Below are positions 4,401-46,110 of a stretch of DNA of 64,000 nucleotides, one piece after another. The position numbers were made by a program, and so were the translations under genes. Each line of letters begins with the position of its first letter. Within the stretch, counting starts at the first letter, position 1. The notes under the pieces were generated by a model, which searched no databases, was not told the origin of the DNA, and saw only the letters and a program-made list of their open reading frames with translations. Source of the stretch: Odontesthes bonariensis (Eukaryota > Chordata > Actinopteri > Atheriniformes > Atherinopsidae); the NCBI RefSeq assembly GCF_027942865.1, contig NC_134515.1, positions 4,125,339 through 4,189,338 on the forward strand, read 5' to 3'.

Positions 4401-7400
4401 TGAGGTCAAAGAAAGCTGATCCTGCTGGATTGTAGGTCACAGAAAAAGTGTCTTTATCACCTTTAATCTTTCCTTTCCCTGCAGGAACCTCACCATGAGC
4501 GTCAGGTCAACTCCTTTGTAAAGGAGCACGGAAGCCTTTATCTGGACGTTAAATCCATCTCACCTGAGGAGGAGATGGACGCCACGGCCGCCAGAGACCT
4601 GGCTGTGTGAGTTCCACGTCGCCGCCGAGCGCCGCCTGTTTGACTCTGTGCACAAAACCACATGTTCAGCAAAGCTTTAGGTTTCAAATCTACCAATCTG
4701 CCTTTTGCTATTTCTTTGTTTTCAGTTCCAAAAGTTAAAAAAGTTTTTGATTTACTTTCAGACTTATTATTTGACTAAAAGTAGTTAAGTTTAGTTTTAG
4801 TGACATTTCTTCAGTATTTATTATGGCTGGGCGAGTTAACTCGTTAATTATTTAACGCCGATAAATATTTTATCGCACATTAACGCAGGTTTTATTATTT
4901 ATTTTATTATTGTAAAAGTCTGTTGCTCACAGGCTTTTATTTTGTAAAAGTCTGCTGCTCACAGGCTTTTATTTTGTAAAAGTCTGCTGCTGTCTGCTGT
5001 GGAACAGGAAAAGAAAGTAATCGGCGGATCCACCAAACATGGAGAAGGGTACGGAACTTTTACTCGGCCATTTTCATTTTAAAGTTCTTCCAGACGACGG
5101 AGTCGACAGAACCAAAGTCATCTGTAAACACTGCCAAGTTGAATTGTCTTCTCAGCGTAGTAGTTCCAGTCTAAAATATCACTTAAAGGCAAAACACACA
5201 ACTGATAGCAGCAAGTCATTCAAGGAAACAGACAGTGGAGCGAGGCTTCTACATAAAAACTACAGAAAGATGCTGATGTTAAAAGTGTGTTTGCACAACA
5301 AATGTTATGGCACTTTCATTCATATGGCAGCACATTTAAAATAAAGCTAAATGCTAAAAGCTATACACTACTTTTGGATTCATTTTTGGATTCTGCGTAC
5401 AAATGCGATTAATCGATTAGATAAAAAGTTTTAATCGTTGCCCAGCCCTAATTTAGTTATTTATTTTAGTTTATTGAAAATGTCTCGGATAGTTCTGGGG
5501 ACGTCCTGAAGGTCACAGGAACCAGGAAGTTCCTCAAAGGCCTGTTGTTGTGTTCGCTCAGTCGGGGTATCGTTAGTTCATCTCAGGCTGCTGGATCATT
5601 GAGCTCTATGAGCTCCGATTGGCTGCAGAGAAAGACCAGAGAAAGCACCTGGTGGGTTACTTCCTGTGGAAAATGTGGCTTCATTGTCAGCAACCCACTA
5701 ACTTCCAGAAGATCCGGAAGTACATTAGTTTTCACATGTGAATGAGACATTAAAAACACTCTCAAGCTGAAGTTTTATCTCTCAAAACGATCTCAGCTTC
5801 ATTATAAATAACTTTTCTCGATGTCCTTCCTTTCAGAGATACGTGCCGGAAGGACAAAGCCTGTGAGTATTTCTTCAGCTTGGACGTCGAGGTGGTCTTA
5901 AAGAACCAGAACACACTCCGAATCCTCATCGAACAGAACCTGTGAGTTCATTTATCAGCGATGAATTATCGATCAGATGTAGGAACGCCGTGTGTTGAAC
6001 TTCTGGAATTGCTCCTCAGGCCGATTGTGGCGCCGATGATAACTCGAGCCGGCCGACTGTGGAGCAACTTCTGGGGGGCGCTGAGCGGGGACGGGTACTA
6101 CGCCCGGTCGGAGGACTACGTGGACATCGTCCAAGCACGGAGAATGTGAGTTAACCCACGTTCCCTGGATAGAGATTCTGGTTTTCACTGTTCGCTTCGA
6201 CTGAAGATGCAGACGGCCTCACAGAGACTGAAGATAGGAACCAAGTATTCAAACTTCTGGTAAATTCGCCTCACAAACAAATAAGAGCTGTATAAGAAGG
6301 TTCTGACAGAGTAATATGGAGCAGAGAAGGGAGAAAACAGAAGAGGAGCTCCTTCATCCGGTGGGAGGGGCTACACCATAGAGGGGGAGGAGCTCCACTA
6401 TCCGGGGGAGGAGCTCCACTATCCAGGGGGAGGGGCTACACCATCCAGAGGGAGGAGCTCCACTATCCGGGGGAGGAGCTCCACCATCCAGAGGGAGGAG
6501 CTCCACTATCCGGGGGAGGGGCTACACCATCCAGGGGGAGGAGCTCCCCTATCCGGGGGGAGGAGCTCCACTATCCGGGGGGAGGAGCTCCACTATCCGT
6601 GGGGAGGGGCTACACCATCCAGGGGGAGGAGCTCCACTATCCGGGGGGAGAACTTACACCATCCGAAGGGAGGAGCTCCACTATCCGGGGGGAGGAGCTA
6701 CACCATCCAGAGGGAGGAGCTCCACTATTCGGGGGAGGAGCTACACCATCCAGAGGGAGGAGCTCCACTATCCGGGGGGAGGAGCTACACCATCCAGAGG
6801 GAGGAGCTCCACTATTCGGGGGAGGAGCTCCACTATCCGGGGGGAGGGGCTACACCATCCAGAGGGAGGAGCTCCACTATCCGGGGGGAGGGGCTACACC
6901 ATCCAGGGGGAGGAGCTCTACTATTCGGGGGAGGAGCTCCACTATCCGGGGGGAGGAGCTACACCATCCAGAGGGAGGACCTCCACTATCCGGGGGGAGG
7001 AGCTACACCATCCAGGGGTGAGGGGCTACACCATACGGGGGGAGGAGCTCCACTATCCGGGGGGAGGGGCTACACCATCCAGGGGGGAGGAGCTCCACCA
7101 TCAGTGGGGAGCTCGGAGTAGAGCCGCTGCTCCTCCACACAGAAAGGACTCGGCTGAGGTGGTTCCTCTGGTCAGGACGCCTCCTGGTCGCCTCCCTTTG
7201 GAAGCTTTTGGGCCCGTCCAGCTGGGAGGAGGCCAACCCAGAACTCTCCAGAAGGATTAAAGCCTCTGGTTCTCCCAGGAGGAGCTGCAGACTGTTGCTG
7301 GGGAGATGGATGTCCGGGTTTCCCTCCTGGACCTGCTGCCTCGGTGACCCGACCTCAGATCAGCAGACGATAATGGATGGACGGATGGCGTATTCTCAGT

Positions 7401-10400
7401 CGTATTCATTTTGTCCCATTTTCTGCTGGTTCAGTGCAAATTAAACAGATTATCATCAACAGCTAAATTAGAACAAGAAGATCAGAAAAGATCACAGAAA
7501 GGGAGCATTTCTTCCTTAAAACCGACGACACTTTATGAATTTGTTGTATCCTGTTCCTGAGATCAGGAACAAGGCGTTGGTGTGTGAGTTTCTTACGGTT
7601 GTGCTGTTTTTTTAGGGGCGTGTGGAACATCCCGTACCTGTCCAACGTGTACCTGGTGAAGGCGAGCCTCCTTCGGTCCGAGCTGAAAGACTACGAGCTG
7701 TTCACCTCGGACAGCTTGGACCCCGACATGGCTTTCTGCCACGCCGTCCGCAGCCAGGTCAGTCCGAGAGGCGAACTCCTCTGAGAAGTCTTACAACAGA
7801 CAAATATAAACGTGAGAATGTCCACGACAACCTGTGACTCTTTCTCTTAGGGGATCTTCATGTATGTGACCAACATGCACACGTTTGGTCGCATCCTGTC
7901 GACAGAAAACTACCAAACCAGTCATCTGCACAACGATCTGTGGCAGATCTTTCAGAACCCGGCGGTGAGGCGGCTTGAATAGAGCCCGAAAATCACACAA
8001 TATTATTATATTAGCAGCTGTTTAGTGGTAGAATAAGTTGGAAAGGTTGGTAATAGAGTGATTTGTACAACAAAAAACCTTCTTAAATCTTCACATTGGG
8101 CAGAAACGTGTCGTGATTGAGTAGAATAGAAAAATACTTTATTCATCCCCCAATGGGGGAAATTCAAATTAGTCAAGTAGCTCAAAAAAATATTAATATT
8201 TACAATGATTGTATATTAACAACAACAAAAATAATACAAATTCTAATAAAAATACTACTACTAAATAATAATAATAATAATAAATGACTAAATAAATAAA
8301 AAAAATAAAAAAATCAATCAATCAATTGATAGATATCAATAGATGATGATCTGTACCAAATGTCGAAGCTAAATCCAGGCTTTAGATTTGCTAAACGTTT
8401 TCACGTATTTGCCCTTTTCAGAATAGACTTTATTATCATCATATATCATGTTTACAGTGAAATTCATCAGAGCTTCTCTCATTTGTGCAATTTAAAAGCA
8501 ATTCTAAAGAAATAAATGAGTTGGACTGACAGTAAAACAGTCATAAAATCCTTCATACATAAATATGTGTGGAAACATTCCCGTATAAACAGAAGCTTGG
8601 AAGTCTGATACTTTTACAGTACAAAAAAAAAAAAACAGTCTCCTCTGATTGGTTAGCTCTGGTGGCCTGATCAGGCTCCGCCTATCATTCTTGATCAGCT
8701 CTGCCGACATTTAAAAAGGACATTTAGCTCCGTGGATCACATGGTGATCACGTGGATCTCTCCAGGATCTTTGGCTGTGTTCGAAACCGCATACTACATA
8801 CTTGCATACTGCATACTACATACTGCATACTACATACTACATACTACATACTGCATACTACATACTACATACTGCATACTACATACTGCATACTACATAC
8901 TACATACTGCATACTACATACTACATACTACATACTACATACTACATACTGCATACTACATACTACATACTACATACTGCATACTACATACTACATACTG
9001 CATACTACATACTACATACTGCATACTACATACTACATACTACATACTGCATACTACATACTACATACTACATACTGCATACTACATACTACATACTGCA
9101 TACTACATACTACATACTGCATACTACATACTACATACTGCATACTACATACTGCATACTACATACTACATACTGCATACTGCATACTGCATACTACATA
9201 CTACATACTGCATACTGCATACTGCATACTACATACTGCATACTACATACTACATACTGCATACTACATACTGCATACTGCATACTACATACTACATACT
9301 GCATACTGCATACTGCATACTACATACTGCATACTGCATACTACATACTGCATACTTCATACTGCATACTACATACTGCATACTGCATACTACATACTAC
9401 ATACTGCATACTGCATACTACATACTTCCATACTGCATACTACATACTACATACTACATACTACATACTGCATACTACATACTACATACTGCATACTGCA
9501 TACTACATACTGCATACTTCATACTGCATACTGCATACTACATACTACATACTGCATACTACATACTACATACTGCATACTACATACTACATACTGCATA
9601 CTACATACTACATACTACATACTGCATACTACATACTACATACTGCATACTACATACTACATACTGCATACTGCATACTGCATACTACATACTGCATACT
9701 ACATACTACATACTGCATACTGCATACTGCATACTACATACTGCATACTGCATACTACATACTACATACTGCATACTGCATACTACATACTTCCATACTG
9801 CATACTACATACTACATACTACATACTGCATACTACATACTACATACTGCATACTGCATACTACATACTGCATACTTCATACTGCATACTGCATACTACA
9901 TACTGCATACTGCATACTGCATACTACATACTGCATACTTCATACTGCATACTGCATACTGCATACTACATACTGCATACTGCATACTACATATTACATA
10001 CTGCATACTGCATACTACATACTTCATACTGCATACTCATCGATCAGACATCATGCAGAGCGTTTACCCTCAATGCATTTCGCTCCTGCCCGAGCCGAAA
10101 TCAGCCGGCCTGAAGCTGATTTCTCTTAAGCTCTAAACTCTGTAAACTTTAGCAACATTTGAAACATTTTCAGGTGAGAAAGTAGTCGTTTAGATCCCCA
10201 ACATGTTGAAAATCTGACTAAATACCGGCTATTTACAATTTTGTTCCCATGAATTCGGCGCTACTAAAGCTAGCCGCAGTGAGCAACGCACTTCCGGTTA
10301 TTTTCACAAAATAAAATACCCGTTGCCTTTTATCATAGGGAAAGCCATTACGATACAATTGGTGCTTTTGTTTTGAAAACAGGAAGTGAACCTACCCTCG

Positions 10401-13400
10401 TTGAAGCTAGCTTGAAACTGCCGTTTTGACAGGAAATGACGATCGGCGACGTCACGTTACGTTGCATCTTGGGTAGTTTGAGTATGAGTAGTAACCTCAT
10501 GATGCATACCCAACATTTCGGCGAATCTAGTATGCATCCGGGAACTTCTCGCTTACTCAAACTCGCATACTAACTCAAAAAGTTAGTATGAGTAGTAGGA
10601 GAAGTATGCGGTTTCGAACACAGCCTTTGTCAGTTTACTACTAGCAGACAGGAAGAAGTTTCCCCCGACCCGGCGGGGTGGTGAAGGGTTCCCCCCCTGA
10701 CTGTGGGCCTTAACTGTGTCCCCTGTGGTGTGTTTCCTGCAGGACTGGCAGGAGCGCTACATTCACGAGAACTACACCCACATCATGAAAGACAAGCTGA
10801 TTGAAACCGTGAGTTGCAACGCTAACGGACCTCGAGTCCCGATTTTAATGGCTACGAGCGCCGCCCGGTTGTGACGTGTGTTCTCTCTGGTGTCCTCCAG
10901 CCTTGTCCAGATGTTTACTGGTTCCCCATCTTCTCTGAAGTCGCTTGCAACCACATTGTTGAAGAAATGGAACACTTCGGGGGGTGGTCCGGAGGAGGCA
11001 ACGTGGTACGTCTGGAAATAATCCCACTGTTAGCGTGTTTTTACTGGTCGTGTTCACCTTCAGGCTAACTGGATATTCACTCATTTGCCAGGACACCAGA
11101 ATCCAAGGCGGCTACGAGAACGTCCCCACCATCGACATCCACATGAATCAAATCAACTACGAAAGGGAATGGCAGAAGTTCTTACTGGAGTTTGTAGCTC
11201 CCATTACAGAGAAAATGTACCCTGGTTACTTCACCAAGGTAAGTTCCTGCCTTCCACGTCTCAACAGTTGATAAAAAAACGACTGTTTACTGTAATTTAA
11301 CCGCCTGCTTTGTTCTCATTCACCCTGTTTTGTCTTCAGAGTAAATCTGTGTGCAGTTTTACCCGTGAACAGACTCAACGAACGTCTCGAATATCTCAGC
11401 AAACAGACAGAAAAATGTCGCTTCCTCCCACCGGGACGCTTGTTTAGTAACGGCTCAGAGAAAAAGAAAGAGGCCTCTGTCTCTCTGGTGTGTTTGAATG
11501 ACCCAGAATATTCCCACTGGACATTTTAAGGAATTTAAAGGGTTTTTTTTATACATAAAGGACAAAAAAAGACTTGTTTAGAGCATAGTTTGGCTCTTTT
11601 TGTCAGTAGATTTAATTTAAAACAGGGGGAATAGTTCTGGAAAGTTTAAAACAACATTTAAAAGATGCTCCGCCAGATAACTTTTCTCTTAAGCTTTAGA
11701 AATGTTAGGAAGTGTGTGCAGCTCAGCTGGTTAAGCAGGTGTCCCGTGGGTTGGAGTCGCGTCCCGGAGCCCTTTGCTTCTCATCTTCCTCCTTTTTTAT
11801 CTACCAACTGTTGGATAAAGGCCACCAGGGTCCTTGTTAGGAATGTGTTTGCCTCCTCAGCCAAAGTAACAGCTGCACAATCACTTTATCTAAACTTTTA
11901 GTTTGAATCTTTTTTAAACACTCTTGAAAAAAGATAACTAAATTGAGTCTTAAAATGATGATTTATCAGGTGGAGAAATGCAGCTGTTTAGGATGAAACA
12001 AACAGAGGTCCTTTTTTTTAAGTTTGATAGAATTTTCTATGGTCTTTATGAGCTGTATGAGACAGGCTTTGACTGAACAGAATATGTGGAATTATATCAG
12101 TTTAAACCGGAAGTCGAGGCGCTCCAGGAGAGGTTCTGCAACAGGACGTTGGTGTTGGTCTCTGTGCAGCGTTACGCTGTGTTTACAGACGTTAGCTCAT
12201 CAACATCTGAACATCTGCTGTGTGATTTAATGCAGTAACACAGACACAATGAAGCTGTTCCTCCAGTAACACCAGAAACACTCCAGCTCTACATACAGAT
12301 ACAGATAGTTACTGTATTGATCCCAGAGGGAAACAGGTTAGCATGTAGCTGTAAGCTAGCAGCAGATGCTAGCAAACAATGCTTTCTTATCAACAGCTGG
12401 ACATCTGCTGTGTGAGAAGTAACATAAGAGAAAATAAAATACCCAGATGTTTTCGTGGAATTAAAGCTGAAATTTTACAGTAATCCACAAGTCAAAACTC
12501 CAAACAAAAACAAAACAAAATCAAACCAAGAGGCTTCAAAACCAGTGTTAGTCAAAATAACATAAAACCAAAACACAGGACTCTTCAAAAACAACCGAGC
12601 TACAAACAGGTTCTAGTAGCGCCTTCAGAACATACAAAAAACATAAGAAAAGTCACAGTCCAGCACAAGCTAATTAAGCTAATTAAGCTAATTAAGCTAA
12701 TTAAGCTAATTAAGCTATCCAAACACTCAAACAAACACCCAGCAAAGAGGCGAGCTGTTCACTTCCGACCTTTTGGAAGGAAGTGGAGGTTTAAATAGGG
12801 AGGCCTCTTCAGTGATTGGTGGAGTCATCAAGGTGAAGAACCAATCAGAGCAAGAGTAGGCCTCAACCAGGAAGTGCCAGGAGTAGTTCCAGTTCCCTCA
12901 GTGGAGACAGCAGGCAGGAACCTACACTGATACAGGAAAAAAGAAACATACAAGGCCACTGGCCGTAACAGTGCAGATAATGTGACGTTTACACATCGAG
13001 AGTGAGGAGAGGGCCGGTGTTGTGTTGGAAACACACCTTATCCACACAGCTGCAGGTTGATGAGTTACAGAACGGAACCGTTCAGCTAACAAAGTAATGT
13101 GGGAACAATAATGTTCATCTTTCAGAAAGGAACAGCAATAACTATGGAAGTTTTTCTGTGCCATCAGTTTGAATATGAATTTCTAATACTGAATTTTTAC
13201 AGCATCAAAATCAGACTTTGAATTTGAAAAACCATCAAATTTCGAGCACCGATTTTTTTTTAATTATGTCTCAATATATTCAGTTTTTCAAATATTGAAT
13301 CAATGTTGAATTTTTTTTTTACATGTCGAATTTTGAAAAACTGAATATTTTGAGACACTGATTTTTTTTTACTGAATTTATTTTAACATTGAAAAAATAA

Positions 13401-16400
13401 ATATTAAAAAAAATTGGTGCTCGAAATTTGATGGTTTTTAAAATTCAAAGTCTGATTTTGATGCTGTAAAAATTCAATATTAGAAATTCATATTCAAACT
13501 CTGATGGCACAGAAAAACTTCCATAAACAACTCCTTAGAAGCTGGTGTACGTCACCTTCATTAGCTAAGCTGTTAGCGTTAGCTGTTAGCTAAGCTGTTA
13601 GCGTTAGCTACTGCTAAAGGAGAAAATAAATAAATAAACCAGGAGGGGTTATTTCTCAGATACTTCCCTGCTCTGAAGTTTGGGTGACTTCAAACTGAAG
13701 GTATTTTTCCATGATACGTCCCCTTTAAAGCTCAGTTTCTGGGTATTATTTGCCGATGTGAGCATTTTAACCCCTCTCGTTGCAGCCTTTCTGACCAGCA
13801 TGTCTTCTCTCATCAGTGTTCCAATCCCTTGAACTTTGTGGTGAGGTACAAACCCAACGAGCAGCCCCTGCTCGTCCCTCACCACGACGCCTCCACATTC
13901 ACTGTTAACATAGCTCTGAACAGCAAAGGCGTGGACTACGAGGTAAATGGCTGCAGGTGGCAGAAGCCACGGGACGGGACGCTGCAGGCGAGCTCTTTCT
14001 CTGCTTCTCTGCTCCCTGAATGCTGGACCAGCTGACGCTTTTCCTCCCCGAGCAGGAGCTGCCAGGCGTGCACGGCGCCCACATCGGCCACCCGAAGCCT
14101 GGAATGCTTGCATGACTGCTGTCTGTCTCTGTGTTTGCAGGCTCAGTTTGACTTGGCCTTTGTAGTTAGATATAAGCCGGACGAGCAGCCCTCTCTGAGG
14201 CCACACCACGACGCCTCCACGTTCACTATAAACATTGCACTCAATGAAGGGGGCCGAGATTACCAGGTGAGTGTTCAGAGACCCCCGAGTTTCATCCTGG
14301 TGTTCAGCTGCTTTCAGACAGGGATGACATGACTATAAAGAGTTTTTAACGAGGAATTAATCACAGATATACCCCAAAAATGGCCTTTATTTTTATTAAA
14401 GGGATAGTTCGCCTCTTTTGACATGAAGCTGTATGACATCCCATATCAGCAACATCATTTATGAACATCTTCTTACCCCCTGCTGCGTCCTGTGAGCAGA
14501 GTTCCAGCCTCGTTTTGGTGTTGATGAAGGTAGTTCCGGCTAGTTGGCTGGGGTTTAAAAAAAAAAAAGCGTTTTTCTTCTCAACAACAATATGCGTTCA
14601 CCCCAACTCTGACCATCTGACCTTAAACGACATTTATATCCATATAAATATGTAGAAATGACTCAAGAAAAATGGCAAAAGCGGCGTGCTGTTTGTACGC
14701 ATTGCCATGAGGACAATTATTAAGAATTATTGTATTAAATCGTATGTAAACATGTTAATTCAGCTAAAAATCATATAAGAATGGAGGTTCTCCAAACCCA
14801 GAGCAGCACTTTGGGTTTAAATAACTCTAAATACACAATAAACCGGAGTCAGACGGTCCCAGAAACTGGTCCCAGCTGCTCTGTTCACGTTAGACGTGCA
14901 GTCAGGTGACGTCGCCAATAAAAGGTTTCAATCGGAAACTTCAACTCAATCAAACTGAATTCAAACCGAAACTGATCCGTCACCATCTGAGCTGAATGAG
15001 CCAGGAAAAAGTCAGACCTCACAATCGCTTGGTCCTATTTTCTCTCCCTTCGTATCACTGCCTGCTGCCGACAGCCGCGCCTGTTACGGTGTTTGCTGCT
15101 CGGTCTGCACAGCAGTCAGTGATACGAAGGGAGAGAAAGTAGCGCCAAGCCATTGTGAGGTCTGACTTTTTCCTGGAGAACGATTTTGTGATGCAAATGT
15201 ATTACTCTGTTGAACGCATATTGTTCTGAGAAGCAAAACGCTTTATTTTTTAAACCCCAGCCAACTAGCCGGACTACTTTCATCAACACCAAAACGAGGC
15301 TGGAACTCTGCTCACAGGACGCAGCAGGGGGTAAGAAGATGTTCATAAATGATGCTGCTGATATGGGATGTCATACAGCTTCATGTCAAAAGAGGCGAAC
15401 TATCCCTTTAATGTAGCACCTTTTTTATAAAAGAATGCATGCTCTTATCAGGCTCTTATTCTACGAATGGGACTAATTTGAACTTTTAATGAATTCCGTT
15501 TGGTTGGTTTATGATTGGCTTGAATTAAAGATCCTCCAGATGACATTTGATTTGGTGCGAAATAAATCAAACTGAACTGAATAAATCGAGTTTAGACGAA
15601 ACGTAGCACGAATGTTCGTTTAGCCGCTGAAATGTTTCTGCAGCATTTTTTGTAATAAGTGACATTTTCATCCTCGATCAGCGCCACACCAGAGCTATAA
15701 CAACCGTGCAATAAAGATTTAATTTGAATTAAATCCTGCTAAAAATAGGAGGTTAAAGATCTTTTAATATGGTGCAGAAACCTCAACTTTCAGTCAGTTA
15801 TGTTTAACTTTACCAGCTAAGATCAAATCGTGACATAATCCCAAAAGAACGGAGATTTTAAAGTGTTTTTGTGGCACTTTTCAGCTCTTATTTCTTCGCG
15901 TTTTAACCCGTCAGATAACGTGTCGGATGGTTAGAGTTCCGGTCCAGCCTGGTGGAGGGTGTACGGAGAGTTAAACCACTCTCATTAAATTAAAACGATG
16001 TTCTCAGCTCATAAAAACTGCAGACGAAACAGTTCAGATCACAGCAGAAATGTTATTTTCTCCCTTTAGCTGAAGCATGATGCTGAGAAATAAAAATCCT
16101 GCAGCTGAAACGGGACCGTCCTCGTGTTTCCGGCATGTGTCGGGGTTTCCTTTCTGTGTTTGTGAGTCTGTCTTCTTTGCATGAAACTCAGACTTTTGAT
16201 GGTTGCTTCCCTGTCGTTTCCCTGCATCCAAAAACAAACTGGACTTTCAGTGTGTTCAGTTCATGCTAAACGGGTCAGAACCGACTTTGTTTCACAAAAT
16301 GTTGGAAAACTGTTATTTTTTATTTGATGCCATCAACATGTTGGACTGTTTCCTGTTTGCAGTCACAGGAAACGACTGGTTTTCATTTGTGGTTCGTTTT

Positions 16401-18199
16401 TATGTTGCTTGGAAAAGAAAAATGGAAGCTGATGATTAACAGTTCCTCAGAATTAAAAGAAAAAAAACCTCAACGGGCCAAAAAACTACTGAGTTACAGT
16501 CAGCTGGGGTTGTAAATTACACTGATGGATCCATAATCCTTCTAGATTATTCATTTCTGGTGGCATAAAACAGTTTAGTCATTTAATTTATATTAATTGT
16601 TCCATAATTAGTCATTAGATTATATCTTATATTCCTTTTTTAAGCTTTAAATTGAATCTTATTTACTTTTTCTTGATGTTGAATAACATATAATTCTTAT
16701 TATTGTCTGTTTATTTCCTACTTTTCTACTTTTAGACGTGATAACGTTCATTATTTTGGGATTAGGATTTTTTTTAAACAAAATTTCTTATATCAATTTG
16801 ACTCTTTTGGTAACTGAAAGCAGTTTTAAACGTAAATGTACAAAAAAGTCGAAGCTATGAAGCTGTTTTTCATAGATGCAGCTAAAGTTTTCAATTATTT
16901 TCAAAAAATGAACCCTTTAGATGCCCATTTGAACTTTTTAGCCCAAATTTTAAGCCTTTAGTTGCCAGTATTTTCAAAATAGGGAATGCAAAGTGGAATT
17001 ATTGAGTGGGGATAATTATGGTCTGGGATATGTCAATGATTAGCAACAACATTGATTTTTAATTTTTTTGTTATGCCTGATTTAAAAAAAAAAAACTCCT
17101 TAATTTCTGAAAAGGGACATTCAAAATTGGCATCTAAAGGGTTAAATTTTTTAAAAATATTTGAAAACTTGATAGTTACGATATAGAACTGAAGTGGAAT
17201 AAAAGATGTATGAAAAAAAAAGTGGAAAACAATATTAATATATGATGTTTTTAGGTCGTTTTAAAAGGGGACAAAAATGTCCCTTTTCAGAAATTAAGGA
17301 GTTTTTTTTTTTTTTTTTTTAAATCAGACATAGCAAAAAAAATTAAAATCCCTAAAAATCAATGTTGTTGCTGATCATTGACATATCCCAGACCATAATT
17401 ATCCCTACTCAATAATTCCACTTTGCATTCCATATTTTGAAAATATAGCAGTTTTTGTGTTGTTTTTTTTACAGAAATTGGCATTTACATCATATTAAAC
17501 CAGTATTTAAAGGGTTACATTTTTTAAAATAATTGAAAACTTGGTAGTTGTGATCAGAACTGAAGTGGAATAAAAGATTTATGAAAAAAAGTGGAAAAAA
17601 TATTAATATATGATGTTTTTAGGTCGTTTTAAAAGGGGACAAAAATTAAGGAGTTTTTTTTTCTACACAATGAAAAATTGCATTGTGTATATGATGTGTG
17701 TTTGAAATTCGAAAAAATAGTCAAAAATGCACAAATATGATGAGGATCACTATTTCCAGTGTGAAATTAGAGAAGAAAGTTCACCAGAAAAGTCCCAACA
17801 ACCTGTTGCTGGCATCAAATTCTAAATGAGCTCCTTTTTTTAGAGGCTGTTTGACGATATTTAATGAAATGTTGGTGTTTGAATGATATTTTCGGGGCTT
17901 CTGTGGCGTCTCTGTTGCTAACGTGGCGTCTCTGTTGCTAACGTGGCGTTCTGTGGCGTCTCTGTTGCTAACGTGGCGTCTCTGTTGCTAACGTGGCGTT
18001 CTGTGGCGTCTCTGTTGCTAACGTGGCGTCTCTGTGGCCGCAGGGAGGCGGATGCAGGTTCCTCCGCTACGACTGCTCGGTGGACGCTCCCCGTAAAGGC
18101 TGGGCGCTCATGCACCCGGGCCGCCTCACCCACTACCACGAGGGCCTGCCCACCACCGCCGGCGTCCGCTACATCGTGGTGTCCTTCGTGGACCCCTGA
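1430..18199 (+). CDS. plod1: Procollagen-lysine 2-oxoglutarate 5-dioxygenase (lysyl hydroxylase, PLOD1-like), 3' part
   Basis: Collagen lysyl hydroxylase: an Fe(II)/2-oxoglutarate enzyme of the ER lumen that hydroxylates lysines in procollagen. Exons read from GT-AG sites and frame: 1430-1493, 3132-3229, 3682-3783, 3858-3989, 4485-4606, 5837-5941, 6020-6145, 7616-7757, 7851-7964, 10743-10808, 10901-11005, 11092-11238, then either 13817-13942 or 14141-14266, then 18044-18199 (stop TGA). All phases join, giving about 534 residues with one of the two alternative exons. Seen: [56 protein letters not shown], the PHHDASTFT iron site and [10 protein letters not shown] near the end. Human PLOD1 has 727 residues, so roughly 190 N-terminal residues (signal peptide and start of the glycosyltransferase-like domain) lie left of the window. 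PLOD1 is preferred over PLOD2/3 because of [16 protein letters not shown] and DIHMNQI (family comparison from memory). Confidence 0.93.
1494..3131 (+). other. PLOD1 intron, unannotated
   Basis: Non-repetitive-looking intron sequence between the first two visible PLOD1 exons. Small open frames on both strands lack domains and splice context. I see nothing else in it. Confidence 0.5.
3243..3532 (-). mobile_element. LINE 3' end (L2/CR1-like), reverse orientation
   Basis: This is the reverse complement of the 3' end of the LINE at 36494-37344. It carries the tail aaatcaaatcaaattta, then the 3' UTR, then the end of ORF2 (the stretch coding [11 protein letters not shown]). It is 5'-truncated, as is usual for LINE copies, and sits between PLOD1 exons 3132-3229 and 3682-3783. 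Confidence 0.75.
4823..5450 (+). mobile_element. Short hAT-like element with BED zinc-finger frame, copy 1
   Basis: The ends are tggctgggcg at the left and cccagccctA at the right, roughly inverted, with helper A/T-rich subterminal sequence. Near the left it carries about three repeats of a unit containing gtctgctgctcacaggc. It holds an intact 101-codon frame (5039-5344). It is too short for a full transposase, so it is presumably non-autonomous. Lies in a PLOD1 intron. A second, left-truncated copy is at 53316-53951. Confidence 0.7.
5039..5344 (+). CDS. BED-type zinc-finger peptide inside a short hAT-like element
   Basis: A 101-codon frame begins [11 protein letters not shown]. It has a Cys29-x2-Cys32...His48-x4-His53 finger (CKHCQVEL...LKYHLKAKH), as in N-terminal BED fingers of hAT transposases. 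It then ends without a catalytic domain. The copy at 53513-53818 differs at two residues that I can see (F/V at 14, D/G at 20). It may be a remnant or a truncated DNA-binding protein; expression is unknown. Confidence 0.45.
   Translation: MEKGTELLLGHFHFKVLPDDGVDRTKVICKHCQVELSSQRSSSSLKYHLKAKHTTDSSKSFKETDSGARLLHKNYRKMLMLKVCLHNKCYGTFIHMAAHLK
6350..7113 (+). repeat. GC-rich minisatellite, about 22-23 bp unit
   Basis: Roughly 33 tandem units of the type ggaggagctccactatccgg, alternating with ggaggggctacaccatccag. Runs of 4-6 G punctuate every unit. It lies in the PLOD1 intron between exons 6020-6145 and 7616-7757. The open frames within it are by-products of the repeat. Confidence 0.92.
8128..8345 (-). 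mobile_element. LINE 3' end fragment and A-rich tail
   Basis: Contains tactttattcatcccccaa followed by tgggggaaattc and a long A/T-rich stretch. This matches in style the tactttattcatccc ends of the copies at 29985 and 34801, but with a different downstream part. The family cannot be assigned. Confidence 0.4.
8773..10625 (+). mobile_element. Inverted-repeat DNA element, family A copy 1, with heptamer expansion
   Basis: It starts ggctgtgttcgaaaccgcat and ends atgcggtttcgaacacagcc, which are exact inverted ends. Directly after the left end comes a CATACTR heptamer array (about 8791-10036), then a unique body of some 560 bp shared with copies at 23967, 45236, 51317 and 56047. There is no transposase, so it is non-autonomous. 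The superfamily is not assigned because no clear target-site duplication could be read. Lies in a PLOD1 intron. Confidence 0.85.
8791..10036 (+). repeat. 7-bp satellite array (CATACTA / CATACTG) inside family A element
   Basis: About 175 tandem heptamers, nearly all CATACTA or CATACTG with a few CATACTT/CATACTTC variants. The heptamer is also present in the element end itself (ccGCATACT). Because 7 is not a multiple of 3 and no stop arises, all three forward frames stay open for more than 440 codons. Confidence 0.95.
11239..13142 (+). other. PLOD1 intron with a possible SINE and a decamer repeat
   Basis: About 11708-11830 looks like a tRNA-derived SINE: agctcagctggttaagc resembles a pol III A box and gggttggagtc a weak B box. 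At 12668-12716 there are five tandem copies of gctaattaag. The rest shows no gene or long repeat. Confidence 0.45.
13143..13525. mobile_element. Palindromic MITE flanked by TA (mariner-like)
   Basis: Arms of about 115 bp: the left begins tggaagtttttctgtgccat and the right ends with its inverse, atggcacagaaaaacttcca. Both ends are flanked by TA, the target of Tc1/mariner elements. The centre is A/T-rich. Intron of PLOD1, just upstream of the duplicated catalytic exon. Confidence 0.7.
13817..13942 (+). CDS. plod1: PLOD1 catalytic exon, copy A (candidate mutually exclusive exon)
   Basis: A 126-bp, phase 0-0 exon with acceptor ...tctcatcag and donor gtaaat. It encodes 42 residues beginning [16 protein letters not shown] and holding [15 protein letters not shown], so the His-x-Asp iron ligand pair is intact. 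Its start (xxLNFVVRY) is more like PLOD2/PLOD3 than the usual PLOD1 start. Copy B lies 198 bp downstream and is identical at 29 of 42 residues. Using both copies would keep the frame but duplicate an active-site strand, so use of only one per transcript is the likelier inference. No transcript evidence is available here. Confidence 0.8.
14141..14266 (+). CDS. plod1: PLOD1 catalytic exon, copy B (canonical PLOD1 version)
   Basis: A 126-bp, phase 0-0 exon with acceptor gtgtttgcag and donor gtgagt. It encodes [16 protein letters not shown] followed by [15 protein letters not shown], the version expected for vertebrate PLOD1. It is the same length and phase as copy A at 13817-13942. Residues that differ include the first four, N/A at position 6, N/D at 14, L/S at 18, V/R at 20, and SK/EG, V/R and E/Q near the end. 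The iron ligands are the same in both. Confidence 0.88.
14396..15411. mobile_element. Palindromic TTAA-flanked element, family B copy 1 (interrupted)
   Basis: The ends are TTAA-agggatagttcgcctc and gaggcgaactatccct-TTAA. TTAA on both sides is the hallmark of piggyBac-type insertion. The left arm breaks off at about 14599 and is replaced until about 15003 by other DNA that includes a repeat shared with 19938-20258. The right arm is complete. Lies in the last PLOD1 intron. Confidence 0.75.
14600..14949 (+). repeat. Dispersed repeat C, copy 1
   Basis: Begins ccccaactctgaccatctga and ends around ggaaacttcaactcaa. The same sequence is found inverted at 19938-20258. There is no coding capacity and the class is unknown. 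It sits inside the left arm of family B copy 1 and replaces part of it. Confidence 0.65.
15412..16970 (+). other. PLOD1 last intron, unannotated
   Basis: AT-rich intron sequence without a recognisable exon or repeat family. Short open frames around 16203-16515 show no domain. Confidence 0.5.
16971..17660. repeat. Fold-back repeat plus direct repeat of its spacer
   Basis: Arms 16971-17130 and 17275-17450 are inverted copies (for example gggatatgtcaatgat against atcattgacatatccc). The spacer (17131-17274, containing gaactgaagtggaataaaag) is repeated in direct orientation at about 17505-17660. Possibly a decayed palindromic transposon; no TSD could be read. Confidence 0.7.
17897..18036 (+). repeat. 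20-bp VNTR abutting the last PLOD1 splice acceptor
   Basis: About seven units of ggcgtctctgttgctaacgt, some separated by ttctgt. The array ends in ggcgtctctgtggccgcag, the acceptor itself. Each full unit has a pyrimidine-rich stretch and tgctaac, which fits a metazoan branch point (yTnAy). Confidence 0.9.
18044..18199 (+). CDS. plod1: PLOD1 last coding exon
   Basis: It begins [12 protein letters not shown] after the acceptor ggccgcag and ends VSFVDP-TGA, the invariant end of lysyl hydroxylases. It holds the distal iron histidine region ([13 protein letters not shown]) and the arginine of VRYIVVSF, which in the family binds 2-oxoglutarate. A VNTR abuts the acceptor (see 17897-18036). Confidence 0.93.
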
Positions 18200-18569: not shown

Positions 18570-19940
18570 TAGAAAACCAGTGACGTTTGCTCTCTAACCA
18601 GGTTAACCAAACCAAACCAGTGATGTTTGCTCTCTAACCAGGTTAACCAAACCAAACCAGTGATGTTTGCTCTCTAACCAGGTTAACCAAACCAAACCAG
18701 TGATGTTTGCTCTCTAACCAGGTTAACCAAACCAAACCAGTGATGTTTGCTCTCTAACCAGGTTAACCAAACCAAACCAGTGATGTTTGCTCTCTAACCA
18801 GGTTAACCAAACCAAACCAGTGATGTTTGCTCTCTAACCAGGTTAACCAACCCAGTGATGTTTGCTCTCTAACCAGGTTAACCAAACCAGTGATGTTTGC
18901 TCTCTAACCAGGTTAACCAACCCAGTGATGTTTGCTCTCTAACCAGGTTAACCAACCCGGTGATGTTTGCTCTCTAACCAGGTTAACCAAACCAAACCAG
19001 TGATGTTTGCTTTCTAACCAGCTTAACCAACCCAGTGATGTTTGCTCTCTAATCAGGTTAACCAAACCAGTGATGTTTGCTCTCTAACCAGGTTAACCAA
19101 ACCAAACCAGTGATGTTTGCTTTCTAACCAGCTTAACCAACCCAGTGATGTTTGCTCTCTAACCAGGTTAACCAAACCGGTGATGTTTGCTCTCTAACCA
19201 GGTTAACCAAACCAGTGATGTTTGCTCTCTAACCAGGTTAACCAAACCAGTGATGTTTGCTCTCTAACCAGGTTAACCAAACCAAACCAGTGATGTTTGC
19301 TTTCTAACCAGCTTAACCAACCCAGTGATGTTTGCTCTCTAACCAGGTTAACCAAACCAGGTGATGTTTGCTCTCTAACCAGGTTAACCAAACCAGGTGA
19401 TGTTTGCTCTCTAACCAGGTTAACCAAACCGGTGATGTTTGCTCTCTAACCAGTGATGTTTGCTCTCTAACCAGGTTAACCAAACCGGTGATGTTTGCTC
19501 TCTAATCAGGTTAACCAAACCGGTGATGTTTGCTCTCTAACCAGGTTAACCAACCCGGTGATGTTTCCTCTCTAACCAGGTTAACCAAATCAAACCAGTG
19601 ATGTTTGCTCTCTAACCAGGTTAACCAAATCAAACCAGTGATGTTTGCTCTCTAACCAGGTTAACCAAACCGGTGATGTTTGCTCTCTAACCAGGTTAAC
19701 CAAACCGGTGATGTTTGCCCTCTAATCAGGTTAACCAACGCAGTGATATTTGCTCTCTAACCACGTTAACCAACCCAGGTTAACCAAACTGATGATGTTT
19801 GCTCTCTAACCAGGTTAACCAACCCAGGTTAACCAAACCAGGTGATGTTTGCTCTCTAACCAGGTTAACCAAACCAGTGATGTTTGCTCTCTAACCAGGT
19901 TAACCAACCCAGTGATGTTTGCTCTCTAACCAGGTTAACT
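18570..19940 (+). repeat. Minisatellite (about 30-40 bp unit) just after PLOD1
   Basis: Some 35-40 units of gtgatgtttgctctctaacc followed by aggttaaccaaacc(aaacca). Units vary in length by loss of an aaacc block. It starts about 370 bp after the PLOD1 stop, so it may lie in the 3' UTR if the AATAAA near 20946 is used. Confidence 0.93.
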
Positions 19941-22107: not shown

Positions 22108-25100
22108 TCACAGGCGGCAGCGGTTGGAAAAGTTGGGCGACTCGGGGACCGTGAGAGGAACGTCGCTCTTCTTCACTGCGACAGGTTTGTAGTGTCTGAC
22201 CGGCTGAGCTTTGTGCACCTGAGGAGGAGAAGAAGAAGAGCGGTCAGAAACGAGTCAGAATCTGTGATCACATCATCTCAGAACCTCAGAAGCCGCCTCC
22301 ACCTGTTCCTGCCGCAGCCTGGCGATCTCCTCCCGCTCCCGCTGCTCCTCCTCCTGTCTCTGCGCCTCCTCCATGCGCGCCCTCAGCGCCTCCTTCTCGC
22401 CGTGCCGCCGCTCCACCTCCGCCCACTCGCGGGCCCGGCGCTCCGTGGCCAGCTCGAAGGCGTCCACCACTGCAGAAGAAGGAATGTCTGGGTGGATGAT
22501 GGTGAAGACAAGAACACAGTGAGTCGCAGCACATCTGCAGCTTTCAGACTGTGGGAACATCTGGAGGAAGAACCCGAATAACGGAGGGCTGCGGCTTCAG
22601 GCCGTCTGATCTGAAAGCAGCTGCAGACGCTTTTAAACAAACTTTCATTCGCTTCTGACGGCGCTTTTGACAGCAAAAGCCCACTTGTTGTGTTTTTTTT
22701 CCCCAACTGGGAAAACTGCAGCGGATGATTGTGTTTCAGACGCATGTTTGTTGTGTTGTCGCTTTTAATTGCGACTGTTTTCCAACAAATGCGACACACC
22801 AACTCGCACACGTTCAGCGGTTCACCACCGGCATTCGGTTTAAATCCCAAACGCTCCCACACTCACACAGGGTTCACTCATCGTTACTCTTATGGACCCG
22901 AGAGGGAGAGGAGGAAAAACTAACAAGCATGCAAATGGCATTTATCACGGCCAGAAAAATTATCGAGTTAATTTTGAATTATCATGCGATTAATTGATTT
23001 ATTGAACATTGTGACAGGCCTACTGACATCTTAAACTAAACTGCCGTCGGTCAGAGGTCGTGTTTCTGCCAGATTCTGTGAAACGACCCGAAACTGAAAA
23101 CCAGAACCGCCGATTCTCAGAAAACTGGTCCAAACTGGCTCGTATGTGGACCTGGAAGCTGTGAGCGGCCTCGGTGAGACGCTGAGTTTAATCATTTGAT
23201 TGGTTAGCCTGTCCTCTGGTTTAATAAACACGTCAGATTAAACAGAAAGCTCGGCGGCTCTTCTTACCCACTGCGCTGCGGCCCTCCTTCCGCGGCCTGA
23301 AAGGCACTTTATGAGTGACCGTGTTGGGTCTGGCTTTGAACACGGCCGCCTCCTCCTGGAGCTTCTGCTCCTCCTTCACCTGCAGAACAGAAGCCAGACG
23401 ATGTAAAATACTGTAAAGATAAAAGCAGGCGGTGCAGGCGGCGGGTCGTACCATCTGCTCCCAGCGGCTGCTCTTCACCGCCCCCCGCTCATCCAGCAGC
23501 AGCCTGAAGGGCTCCGGCTTGGTGGGCTCCAGCTTCTTCTTCTCGGGAAGGACCACCGTGTCGAAGTGCGGCAGCAGCTGGGCCTTGAACTGCGGGACCT
23601 GGAGAAGACAAAGAGAGATTCAGCCTTGGCTCTGAGGACGCAGACTCCTGCTTCTGGGACAGAGACTCCACCTCTTCGTTCCGCAGCTCCTCCAGCTTCT
23701 TCTCCTTCAGCGCCCGCCTCTCCTGCTCCCGCTGATCGAAGGAGAACGGGCAGACCTCCACCTGCTGCTTCTCTGGGAGCCGGGGCACGAACGGGAGGCC
23801 GAAGTGCGGCACCGGGGGGACCTTCAGCGGCGAGGGCGGCTTCGCCTGAACAGAACAAAAAGGTTAGAGGAGACGGACCAAGTTGTTAAAACAGTGGGAT
23901 GAAAAGTGGTTGCTGCACATCCACAGTCTTTAGCCAACTCTGCTGAAACATTAGCCTCAGATAAGAGGCTGTGTTCTAAACCGCATACTTCTCCTACTAC
24001 TCATACTAACTTTAACTTTTTTTAAGTTCCCGGATGCATACTAGATTCTCCTAAATGTTGGGTATGCATCATGAGGTCACTACTCATACTCAAACTACCC
24101 AAGATGCAACGTAACGCGACGTCGCCGATCGTCATTTCCTGTCAAAACGGCAGTTTAAAGCTAGCTACAACGAGGGTAGGTTCACTTCCTGTTGTCAAAA
24201 CAAAAGCACCAATTGTATGGTAATGGCTTTCCCTATGATAAAAGGCAACGGGTATTTTATTTTGGTGAAAATAACCGGAAGTGCGTTGCTCACTGCGGCT
24301 AGCTTTAGTAGCACTGAATTCGTGGGAACAAAATTGTAAACAGCCGGTATTTTGTCAGGTTTTCAACACGTTGGGGATCTAAACGACTACTTTCTCGCCT
24401 GAAAATGTTTCAAATGTTGCTAAAGTTTACAGAGTTTAGAGCTTAAGAGAAATCAGCTTCAGGCCGGCTGATTTCGGCTCGGGCAGGAGCGAAATGCATT
24501 GTGGGTAAACGCTCTGCATACTGCATTATGCGGTTTCGAACACACCTTCTGCGTGTCTGTAATTACTGACAGAGGACAGCAAAGCGTTTCTTACTTCCTC
24601 GACCTTGCGGTCCAAACGGATCCTCTTCTTCAGCGCGAACGCCGGGGACTCCGGCACTGTCGGATAGGGAACTTTCTTTTCTGGCAGTCCCTGTAAAGAG
24701 GAAGATTTCCACTTTACCACCAAACGGGAGAGACCTGCAGAAGCTTCGTGTTCTCTGAATAAAACCAGTTTCAGGCGACTGGGACACTCACCGAAACCCC
24801 CTCCAGGACCTTCTTGGGCAGGGGCTTGGCTCTAAAGCCGTGGGGCTTCTCCTCACCCTCTTGGGGCTTCTTTGTGGCCTGTCTCTCCTGGAGCCTTTTC
24901 TCGATCTCCAACTCGAAGCCTTCGGGTACGGTGGGCTCCTTCACCGCCGGCTTCTTCAGCGCCTCGGCACCCTCTAGCATCTTCTTGTTGAGCTCCAGGG
25001 GCTTTATTTTAAACCTGTGATTTTAAACACCGGTTAGTTTATGGCCCCCCCAGAATCTCAACACATTTATAAAAGTTAAGGTTCATACTTCTGGAGCTGT

Positions 25101-28100
25101 TCCAGCTCCTCAGCTTCCACTTCTGCGCTGCTCTTGGTCGCCTGAGGTCGGCCTCTCTGGCGCGTCATCAGCTGAGGGGAGTGGGGCTGCGTGAGCTTCG
25201 GGTGGTTCCTCTTCACCGGAGACGGACCTGAGACGACAGCAGCAGAAACTCAACATCTAACGTGAGGAAACATGGAGCAGTAAGTTTCCTAAATTTGTCC
25301 CCCCCTCCATGGATAGATGAATGTTTGTTTTTTAGGTTCCATATGTTTTAAACATTTCCTTTTATTTATTGAAGTTCTTGAATTTACTTAGCCTGGCTGA
25401 TGCGTCCACAATCTCGATGAGATGGTGGTCTGGGAACCAGGTGTGCATTTTCTCGTATTTGAGGCGTGGTTTACGAATGCCTAGAGCCGTTTATTGGGCG
25501 CTACGAATGTCTATCAAACGGCGTCTGGTTCTTCCCATGCTGCTTTGCGCGCGATTCATACCCAATTCTATCACTTATACCAGATGACGTATGTAGAGCG
25601 ACAGAAATTTGATGAAGAAGAAGAAAAAAAAAAAGTAAAATAAAAGTAAACTTGGGTTCTAAGCTACTTAAAACACTTTCTAAGGCTGCATCGAACGGTA
25701 ACGTTGTGTCCGCTGCCATGTTGGATTAACACTCCACAAGCTTCGGTGTCAACATCGTCTTGCTACCCCCCCGTTCTGTGATTGGTTCCCTAACTCAGGC
25801 AAAAATAAGGGCGGTGGTTTCCAGGCTGCCTTTGCAGTGAGAATGAAATCGCACGCAAAGCAGCATGGGAATTCCCAGGCTAGAATTTACCTGGATTATT
25901 TTAAATTTAAGCTATTTTTTTTTAATTAATTTTATCAACTGGATGAACTCTAATTTGCTTAAAGATGATTATTTAGTATTTTTGTCGGTAAACGGTAAAC
26001 TGTGGCTTAACTGAACATTAAAACAAAAGGACAGCTTTTGTATTGAAGGCTCGAGTTCTTTGGGATAAAATGGACAATAAAACAACTCTTTAAGGTGGAC
26101 GAGCTGTTAAACACGTGCAGTTTCTGCAGTTAAAAACCAGTAAATCGCATCAAAAATTCTCTTTCTGTTGCAGTTCAGCCTTCGTGTCCCTCGCACCTCT
26201 TTCTTGAGTTCTGCGGCTGTGGTAGCGGGTCGGCGTTCGCTTCTGGAACTGCTCGACCTGCTGAGCCATGGAGACGTACGCGGCCGGCTCCTCCCCCTTC
26301 CTCTTCATGCCTTTAGACAGATTGAAGGGCTTTGGCACCGTGGCTCCTCGCCTCATCTTCGTCTTTAAGAGGAAGAGACAAAGACAACAGTTTAAATATT
26401 TATCTTTAGCTCTTTATCAGCTTTCTGCACGCCTCTGATCTGCTTACTGCTGCTGAGGGCTGACGGAGCTGATGGATGAAGTCCACCTCCTTCTGCGAAG
26501 AGTCGGACGTAGCGGACGCCTTAACACGAGAGTCTGTGTTGAAGTGGAATTCTTCCGGCACAGTTGTGGAGATGAGCATCTTCTTTGGTGGGGGATCTGA
26601 AATAAAACGGTGAGTTAGACTCGAAGCCGTCAGATGTGGCATCTTTACTTAAAGGGACAGTTCGCCTCTTGACATGAAGCTGTATGACATCCCATATCAG
26701 CAACATCATTTATGAACATCTTCTTACCCCCTGCTGCGTCCTGTGAGCAGAGTTCCAGCCTCGTTTTGGTGTTGATGAAGGTAGTCCGGCTAGTTGGCTG
26801 GGGTTTAAAAAATAAAGCGTGTTGCTTCTCAAAACAATATGCGTTCAACAGAGTAATACATTTGCATCACAAAATGGTTCTCCAGGAAAAAGTCAGACCT
26901 CACAATCTCTTGGCCCTATTTTCTCTCCCTTCGTATCACTGCCTGCTGTGCAGACCGAAGCGCAGACCGAGCAGCAAACACCGTAACAGGCGCGGCTGTC
27001 AGCAGCAGGCGGTGATACGAAGGGAGAGAAAATAGGGCCAAGAGATTGTGGGGTCTGACTTTTTCCTGGAGAACCATTTTGTGATGCAAATGTATTACTC
27101 TGTTGAACGCATATTGTTTTGAGAAGCAACACGCTTTATTTTTTAAACCCCAGCCAACTAGCCGGACTACCTTCATCAACACCAAAACGAGGCTGGAACT
27201 CTGCTCACAGGACGCAGCAGGGGTAAGAAGATGTTCATAAATGATGTTGCTGATATGGGATGTTACACAGCTTCATGTCAAAAGAGGCGAACTGTCCCTT
27301 TAAAGTGTGACATGAACTCACTGCCAGCCAGCGCCGCCTTGTAGCTGGCCTCGTTCTGCCTGCGGTGCAGCGCCACCTCTCGCTGGAGGCTCCGGATTCG
27401 CTCCATCTCCAGGTCCTCAGAGCTGAGTGGCCTGTGGGGACAGAATCATCACCGTTAGCATTTACTTCTACGGGCTTTGGAGGAGGTCCAAACAGCCACA
27501 CGGGAAGTTCCTTTCAAACTAAACCACCTCGCCTCCACAGCAGAACAATCCTGGCATCACTTAAGTCTTAAATTTCTTTTGGACAATTACAGGAACTTGC
27601 ATATCACACAGGAGCAGAATTAGTCATCATTCTCAGTGTTCCTTATTGTGTTAAAAGCCTTTCAGGCTGTTTTTTGGTGACATCATCTCCAGCTGGATCT
27701 TAATGAAAATAAACTCTTTGGACCAAATTCTGGAGCGAGAGCCACTCCAGGGCAGGTTCTACTTTAGATCAGTTGCAGATCGGTTTGATTTTCCACAGAA
27801 CTGTGCCGTTACATCACTTTAAACATCCCTTCAGCAGATGTTTGAACCCCTCTCCATTTCTTCTGAATTTCTGCAGAAAACCACAGCGCAGAGAGACGTT
27901 CATCTGCACAGATGGTCGGTGTTTGTCTCATTTTCACTGCAAACAAAAGTCCTAAAAATATCTTGCTATGCCCCATTTTTACAACTCTGCACCACTTTCA
28001 GAGGTCTTAAGATGTGACATGCTTAGGTCAAACTACCAGCTGCCCTTCTGACCCTTTTTAACACTTCCTGAAAACGCGCTTTCAGAGGTGCGTAGTAACG

Positions 28101-36493: not shown

Positions 36494-37344
36494 ATGAGAG
36501 AGAATTTTCTACAATTAAATGAAGACCAAACTGAGATCATTCTGTTTGGGAGCAAAGAGAAGAGGGTCAGCGTTGGTAAATATCTTGAGACTCGGGCCCT
36601 TACAATCACTGACCAAGTCGGTAACCTCGGAGTGTTGATAGACTCAGATCTGACTTTCAGCAGCCACATCAAAGCTGTCACCAAGGCAGCTTTTTACCAC
36701 CTCAGAAACATCAACAGAATGAAAGGTTTCCTCTCCCAAACAGACCAGGAGAAACTCATCCATGCATTCATCTCCAGCAGACTCCATCACTGTAACGCTC
36801 TTTTAACTGGACTTCCCAAAAAGAGCATTAAACATCTGCAGCTCATCCAGAACGCTGCTGCTGGAGTTTTAACCCGGACTAAGAGATCTGAACACATCAC
36901 AGCAGCTTTAAAATCTTTACTCTGGCTTCCAGTCAGTCACAGAATAGATTTTAAAAGCCTGCTGATGGTTTACATCTGTGATCTGTTCAGAGAATATAAA
37001 CCCAGCAGAGCTCTGAGATCCAAGGACTCAGGTCAGCTGGTCCAGTCCAGAGTCCAGACTAAACATGGAGAAGCAGCATTTAGCTGTTATGCTGCTAACA
37101 AGTGGAACAAACTGCCAGTGGAGATTAAACTTTCACCAAATGGAGACATTTTTAAATCCAGGTTAAAAACATTTCTGTTCTCATGTGTCTATGCATGAAA
37201 TCTGCACGCTATCTTTGAACTTATCTGGACTGTTGCTTGTTTTTAATCATTTTAATGATTTTATTTGTTTCTCTTTATGTTCTTTTATGTATTTTTAATG
37301 CTTCTTCCACTCCCTGCTGCAATGCTTTTATTTCATGTAAAGCC
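36494..37344 (+). mobile_element. LINE (L2/CR1-like) ORF2 3' end and 3' UTR
   Basis: An intact frame of 234 codons (36494-37198) is the C-terminal part of a non-LTR reverse transcriptase. Landmarks are NEDQTEIILFG, LGVLIDSDLTFSSHIKAV, HHCNALLTGLPKK, LIQNAAAGVLTRTK, LLWLPVSHRIDFK and the terminal [10 protein letters not shown]. The catalytic core (FADD) and endonuclease are missing because the copy is 5'-truncated. Its 3' UTR runs into a truncated family B element at 37345. The clade is judged by eye. Confidence 0.85.
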
Positions 37345-37744
37345 TCACAATCTCTTGGCCCTATTTTCTCTCCCTTCGTATCACTGCGTGCTGCCGCCTG
37401 CCGACAGCCGCGCCTGTTACGGTGTTTGCTGCTCGGTCTGCACAGCAGGCAGTGATATGAAGGGAGAGGAAATAGAGCCAAGCGATTGTGAGCTCTGACT
37501 TTTTCCTGGAGAACGATTTTGTGATGCAAATGTATTACTCTTTTGAACGCATATTGTTTTGAGAAGCGAAACGCTTTATTTTTTAAACCCCAGCCAGCTA
37601 GCCGGACTACCTTCATCAACACCAAAACGAGGCTGGAACTCTGCTCACAGGACGCAGCAGGGGGTAAGAAGATGCTCATAAATGATGTTGCTGATATGGG
37701 ATGTCATACAGCTTCATGTCAAAAGAGGCGAACTATCCCTTTAA
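37345..37744. mobile_element. Family B palindromic TTAA element, copy 3 (left arm missing)
   Basis: Starts inside the left arm (cctcacaatctcttggccct) directly at the LINE junction, passes the palindrome centre and ends gaggcgaactatccct-TTAA (37741-37744). Confidence 0.8.

Positions 37745-42500: not shown

Positions 42501-46110
<3,610 letters not shown>

Follow-up and report, generated by a model that had tools for sequence, protein, structure and literature searches.

The 64,000-nucleotide stretch of Odontesthes bonariensis DNA analysed here (the window) carries two adjacent and similar exons of the lysyl hydroxylase gene PLOD1, each encoding a His-x-Asp motif. The locus raises the question of whether an mRNA takes one of these exons or the other and, if so, what the exchange would alter in the enzyme. 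We consider it probable that the two are ancient, tandemly duplicated exons used as alternatives, in a swap that would most likely tune the choice of collagen or of lysine while the catalytic chemistry is kept.

The window contains 15 PLOD1 exons on the + strand, extending from 1430 to 18199 and followed by a stop codon; more of the gene lies 5' of these exons, beyond the window. A gene model was checked against the public O. bonariensis PLOD1 protein (P0127) and starts with exons at 1430-1493, 3132-3229, 3682-3783, 3858-3989, 4485-4606, 5837-5941, 6020-6145, 7616-7757, 7851-7964, 10743-10808 and 10901-11005. These are followed by a constitutive exon at 11092-11238, which ends in codon phase 0 with ...YPGYFTK, its last residue being lysine. 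Next come exon A (13817-13942; 126 bp, phase 0-0), of an exon class common to jawed fishes, the A-B intron (13943-14140; 198 bp) and exon B (14141-14266; 126 bp, phase 0-0), of the class to which the public O. bonariensis protein and the listed tetrapod records belong. The last coding exon (18044-18199) reads GGGCRF...SFVDP before the stop codon, and carries the counterparts of LH3 His719, the third of the iron ligands, and of LH3 Arg729, the arginine for 2-OG, following the numbering in excerpts of PMC6082870. The B-containing gene model equals P0127 at 534/534 residues. This protein is of the B form, and a second O. bonariensis isoform was not seen among the matches listed. The gene was identified as PLOD1 by the 100% identity of the B form over 534 residues to P0127, a record named PLOD1, and LH3 rows fall outside both A and B in an exon tree built from sequences that did not include PLOD2.

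The introns of the gene and the rest of the window hold numerous repeats. An inverted-repeat element at 14395-15412, in the intron after exon B, has 140-nt arms that are 99% complementary, then 53-nt arms at 79%. It looks like a non-autonomous DNA transposon, and a translated likeness of it is found at 26712-27035 and at 37275-37679. Two further inverted-repeat elements lie at 13143-13525, 290 bp upstream of exon A (95-nt arms, 97%), and at 16969-17445 (93-nt arms, 97%). A 7-bp satellite, CATACTA, in ~178 copies fills a PLOD1 intron at 8790-10037, and an array resembling it, flanked by sequence with the same translation, is present on the minus strand at 51673-53193. Tandem arrays occupy 6343-7111 (65-bp units, in a PLOD1 intron), 17899-18035 (50-bp units, directly up to the acceptor of the last exon) and 18574-19939 (35-bp units, ~36 copies, starting ~375 bp past the PLOD1 stop codon). 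Near-identical reading frames with a BED zinc finger (PF02892), at 5021-5340 inside PLOD1 and at 53513-53815, are probably transposon pieces. Elsewhere in the window there is a Ras-family GTPase gene of at least two exons at 42516-44737 (PF00071), which we take to be RhoA-like, and on the minus strand a weak TPX2 match below the cut-off at 22273-22557 and a DUF4743 match at 57395-57778.

An initial sequence-only reading of this DNA had described two adjacent 126-bp exons of phase 0-0, 198 bp apart and identical at 29/42 residues, and the coordinates, lengths, phases and translations were all reproduced here. At the nucleotide level, the exons agree at 82/126 bases, and different codons are used at 14 of the 29 residues that they have in common. 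The flanking exons at 11092-11238 and 18044-18199 join in phase 0 with A or with B alike. The same reading had credited both exons with good splice sites. This is true of B (acceptor ...TTTGCAG/GCT, donor CAG/GTGAGT), the donor of which scored 12.5 bits and was the best of the 14 donors scored with a weight matrix, but A (acceptor ...CTCATCAG/TGT, donor GAG/GTAAAT) has only a fair donor of 7.8 bits. Read-through of A's donor, giving Val-Asn, was observed in five annotated proteins from four species (Dicentrarchus, Larimichthys, Pampus and Anguilla). Since such read-through requires GTNAAY, an A at position +5 of this donor is common from eel to silverside, and a weak donor that is conserved fits a regulated exon with B as the default.

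Other signals in and around the A-B intron were also recorded. In three percomorph genera the read-through of A's donor yields VNEEE (P0080, P0082, P0083, P0086), hinting at a conserved intron start GTNAAYGAR after exon A in these fishes; the A-B intron of the window starts GTAAATGGC, without the purine stretch of GTNAAYGAR. A motif search of this intron for a predicted branch point of B within ~50 nt of A's donor found none, the motif-predicted branch points lying 93 and 173 nt away. At these distances steric exclusion of the type described for OGDH is not indicated, and a steric block as the cause of A/B exclusion was therefore not supported. The intron also contains TGCATG at 14109, presumably an RBFOX-like motif, for which a chance occurrence would be expected in 5.5% of introns of this kind, and GCATG occurs just upstream of A at 13798. 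As a lead only, the TGCATG at 14109 could favour A and repress B.

What the exchange would alter is suggested by the position of the exon in the catalytic domain. By alignment, A and B each correspond to LH3 residues 646-687. When both exons are removed the match to Pfam 2OG-FeII_Oxy (PF03171) is lost, and either exon restores it, with A scoring 41.3 bits and B 47.6 bits against a cut-off of 23 bits. The His-x-Asp in each exon, proposed earlier to bind iron, does align with LH3 His667/Asp669 as numbered in excerpts of PMC6082870. The same excerpts assign His667 and Asp669 to iron, Tyr656 to the 2-OG pocket, and Thr672 and Phe673 to a pocket that receives Leu715 from the other subunit of the dimer. 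All five of these positions are invariant in 24/24 A and 29/29 B segments. The differences between A and B are located at exon residues 1-6, which form the largest cluster, and at residues 14, 18, 20 and 36-39. As the iron ligands, the 2-OG tyrosine and the dimer-pocket residues do not vary, the switch of the iron site that had been suggested is better described as one around an unchanged iron site.

The two classes are separated by a small set of marks. Residue 6 is N in 24/24 A and A in 29/29 B segments, residue 3 is S, T or N in A versus F in B, and residue 4 is acidic (D or E) in every B and in no A. Residue 20 is R in 21/29 B and in 0 A segments, and cysteine is the first residue of bony-fish A segments (20/24 A rows). 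The cluster at residues 1-6 directly follows the lysine that ends the exon at 11092-11238. In the viral enzyme L230 this lysine is matched by K804, to within one residue owing to an alignment gap; the K804 numbering is that of L230 chain residue 144 plus 660, anchored by His825 and Tyr814. In the excerpted parts of PMC5802723, the charge reversal K804E increased the collagen Km of L230 from 2.6 to 9.6 uM, with dimerisation and short-peptide activity kept. Because the A/B differences adjoin this collagen-cleft lysine, we infer that A and B hold collagen differently. In AlphaFold models of the both-exon protein P0003 (alignment of 52) and of P0019, an A-form protein (alignment of 42), most of the catalytic domain scored below 50 in pLDDT, which is too poor for placing the differing residues or for judging the folding of the tandem form.

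The invariant residues also bear on the idea that A, though a conserved exon, encodes a poor or inactive hydroxylase that lowers activity, for example via mixed dimers with the B form. LH activity needs dimerisation (PMC6082870 and PMC5802723, in the parts drawn on here), A has the weaker donor, and A is the rarer form among the transcript-like contigs listed (1/23; see below), all of which would suit such a role. Against this, none of the A segments compared (24/24) has lost any of the three iron ligands, the tyrosine for 2-OG or the residues of the dimer pocket, and A scores above the 2OG-FeII_Oxy cut-off, so that we regard a dampening function of A as improbable. A working enzyme with altered handling of collagen is the reading that we favour for the A form.

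Evidence on whether one exon or both are used came from annotated isoforms. A-form and B-form records were paired by species name in 20 species; these records are annotations, many of them computed. In 17/20 paired species, the A and B isoforms had the same length and differed at 10 to 12 residues, all of them within the exon. In the Myripristis, Lates and Pygocentrus pairs the N-terminal lengths differed too, and the C-terminal part after the exon was the same. The mutually exclusive splicing put forward in the sequence-only reading draws support from these 17 pairs, but the tandem of A and B was also found in at least 19 annotated proteins among the matches listed, indicating that A-to-B joining may occur. 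Nine of these are NCBI 'isoform X' records from eight species, and double-exon records designated 'isoform X1' were seen for Sphaeramia, Solea, Labrus, Lepisosteus, Tachysurus, Mobula, Scyliorhinus and Hippocampus.

A second view was provided by the 'lgn' records, which stem from contigs of 1,070 to 5,450 bases. The last 15 PLOD1 exons span 16.8 kb in the window, too long for such contigs, and the lgn records were therefore taken as transcript assemblies. Among the 23 PLOD1-type lgn proteins in the matches listed, 22 were B (a lower bound for this form; at least two of them look like tetrapods), one was A and none had both exons. The A-form lgn protein (P0025) has 730 residues and is 97.8% identical to Melanotaenia P0020; its contig, at 3,890 bases, is very unlikely to be genomic.

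These counts argue against both exons being commonly spliced in together to give a 774-residue protein with tandem copies of the segment, in which A would be an insert and not an alternative. Such a product is compatible with the annotated proteins in which A is directly followed by B, with exon lengths that are multiples of three and so keep the frame, and with an A-B intron that at 198 nt is long enough for splicing. On the other hand, 0/23 PLOD1 proteins on transcript-like contigs listed carry both exons, Solea and Dicentrarchus have A-only and B-only forms besides the double form, and a catalytic core in which a strand is duplicated and HxD occurs twice would be unlikely to fold. We judge common double inclusion to be very improbable. 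One-at-a-time use of A and B remains our preferred reading, under which an O. bonariensis mRNA would normally take A or B, giving two LH1 enzymes that differ within a 42-residue catalytic segment. B would be the commoner form, and A, with its conserved weak donor, would probably be the regulated one.

Both exons are under selection. Between A and B, dN was 0.31 and dS 1.80, with synonymous sites saturated, giving a dN/dS of ~0.17 (Nei-Gojobori). When B was evolved neutrally to an equal nucleotide divergence (n=20000), no simulation retained as many as 29 identical residues (the mean was 16.2 and the maximum 25), and a stop codon arose in 14245/20000. Between species, differences per site, calculated on gap-free segments of 18 species, were 0.157 for A, 0.133 for B, 0.165 for the 42 residues upstream and 0.087 for the 51 residues downstream. 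The constraint on A is therefore about as strong as that on the 42 residues upstream (0.157 vs 0.165). In a pairwise comparison of 19 species, A was the more different exon in 102 and B in 48 of 171 species pairs, and A evolves somewhat faster than B between species. The dN/dS value and the constraint on A between species bear out the earlier view that A is not a decayed copy, as does the age of the A class described next.

The distribution of the two exons was examined at the protein level. Searches listed 120 of 415 matches for the A segment, 120 of 926 for the B segment and 120 of 567 for the A-B junction; the lists collapse similar proteins, and 269 different proteins were present among the matches listed. 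In this set, 64 proteins have the A segment joined to the next exon (including P0077, an A/B hybrid), 155 have the B segment joined to the next exon, 19 have A then B, and six A and four B segments have another continuation; 19 proteins are LH3-type and two are odd. The pair is not special to this one fish. A-type exons occur in many teleost orders and, beyond the teleosts, in gar, sturgeon (in a record marked unverified), paddlefish and bichirs (Polypterus and Erpetoichthys), as well as in the sharks and rays Scyliorhinus, Chiloscyllium, Pristiophorus, Mobula and Rhinoraja and in P0084, which we take to be a chimaera. B-type exons were found in the tetrapod PLOD1 records among the matches listed (e.g. 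Varanus, Agelaius, Xenopus, Bombina and Equus), in the cypriniform records listed (Cyprinus, Sinocyclocheilus, Ctenopharyngodon, Puntigrus and others) and in the cyprinodontiform records listed (Cyprinodon, Xiphophorus, Poeciliopsis and Nematolebias). No A was present among the listed matches of these three groups, which suggests that A was lost there.

An exon tree was built from 60 segments (24 A, 29 B and 7 outside) over 42 columns; the bootstrap was unsettled and the support values are accordingly rough. The 24 A rows formed one clade (support 94/92) and the 29 B rows another (96/93), with lamprey and LH3 rows outside both. Shark A grouped with the A segments of bony fishes, and shark B with the B segments of bony fishes and tetrapods. 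As each of the separate clades contains sharks and bony fishes, the duplication is older than the split between them. At residue 6, A segments and LH3 both have N where B segments have A, suggesting that exon A may keep the older state; against this, residue 20 is R in 7/7 outgroup rows and so resembles ray-finned-fish B, and viral L230 has A at residue 6. With a dN/dS of 0.17, no match in retained residues among 20000 neutral simulations, a near-same A exon in Leuresthes (40/42 residues) and Melanotaenia (39/42) and A found again as far back as sharks, the notion that A is confined to one fish, as a duplicate in decay, a fault of the assembly or a pseudo-exon without use, which the weak donor of A and the B-only state of the sole O. 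bonariensis protein found might have encouraged, is almost certainly wrong.

Two records among the matches have unusual segments. In P0077, a UniRef record from Gasterosteus, the PLOD1 segment starts A-like and ends B-like (...NQVGPDYQ), reflecting either an annotation artefact or an exchange between the exons. P0125, an 851-residue PLOD record from Fasciola gigantica, has two copies of the segment. Each copy is followed by its own GGG[TI]RF, and what is repeated in this record is therefore a longer portion of the domain and not a tandem exon pair; it may be an assembly fault.

On the reading preferred here, the differing residues would sit around the active-site entry, beside the collagen-binding cleft, and the swap would most likely tune which collagen or which lysines are hydroxylated, leaving the iron chemistry as it is. 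The type of cross-link depends on which collagen lysines are hydroxylated. Two LH1 forms that occur naturally in both sharks and bony fishes, and differ at 10 to 13 residues next to the collagen cleft, amount to a ready-made experiment on how LH enzymes choose their sites. If the swap alters that choice, the specificity of LH1 could be set by splicing, as has been proposed for its paralogue LH2. The pair may have gone unnoticed because A is missing from the listed tetrapod and cypriniform records, the groups of mouse, human and zebrafish. More speculatively, and in our view doubtfully, LH1 worked in two modes in the ancestor of jawed vertebrates, with the exon swap as the switch between them, tetrapods and, separately, cypriniforms and cyprinodontiforms lost A, and human LH1 is the B-only remainder; A would then serve fish collagens or lysine sites, e.g. 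those of the fin and dermal skeleton.

Within the same enzyme family, the paralogue PLOD2 is also alternatively spliced, at exon 13A (LH2a/LH2b). That exon is a small cassette which is either in or out; it is not known to be swapped for a homologous exon or to lie at the iron ligands. Exons 9a and 9b of P4HA1 lie outside the iron-binding motif, whereas the swapped exon of PLOD1 has two of the three iron ligands inside it, and P4HA1 is a prolyl hydroxylase of another gene and family, PLOD1 being a lysyl hydroxylase. Human P4HA1 is likewise a 2-OG/iron collagen hydroxylase that uses one of these two mutually exclusive exons, according to excerpts of PMC11868403. LH3 (PLOD3) and viral L230 have solved structures that align over the whole exon and are the source of the residue roles used above. 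One version of the segment is present in the chains found for them, and no A/B pair is reported in the parts of these sources drawn on. A search of the open-access literature at the level of titles and abstracts found no published description of the PLOD1 exon pair; the excerpted part of PMC5983119 concerns skipping of a mouse Plod1 exon. The A and B isoforms are already in public protein databases and, as far as we have seen, unremarked.

OGDH, which also encodes a 2-oxoglutarate-using enzyme, has mutually exclusive exons 4a/4b that are conserved in fishes and separated by a short intron (PMC7969005, excerpts). Exclusion there works through branch points below ~50 nt from the donor (same source), in contrast to the 93 and 173 nt predicted for PLOD1. 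Events in which homologous exons are used in a mutually exclusive way are already known as tandem duplicated exon substitution, as set out in excerpts of PMC9741552. The survey in that paper starts from 236 human events, and a pair missing from the listed tetrapod records would not be included; the string 'plod' occurs 0 times in its main text. The PLOD1 pair resembles the events described in those excerpts in being adjacent, homologous, equal in length and phase and ancient, with isoforms that differ only in the segment. What makes it stand out is how old it is, that it sits at the iron ligands and that tetrapods have apparently lost it.
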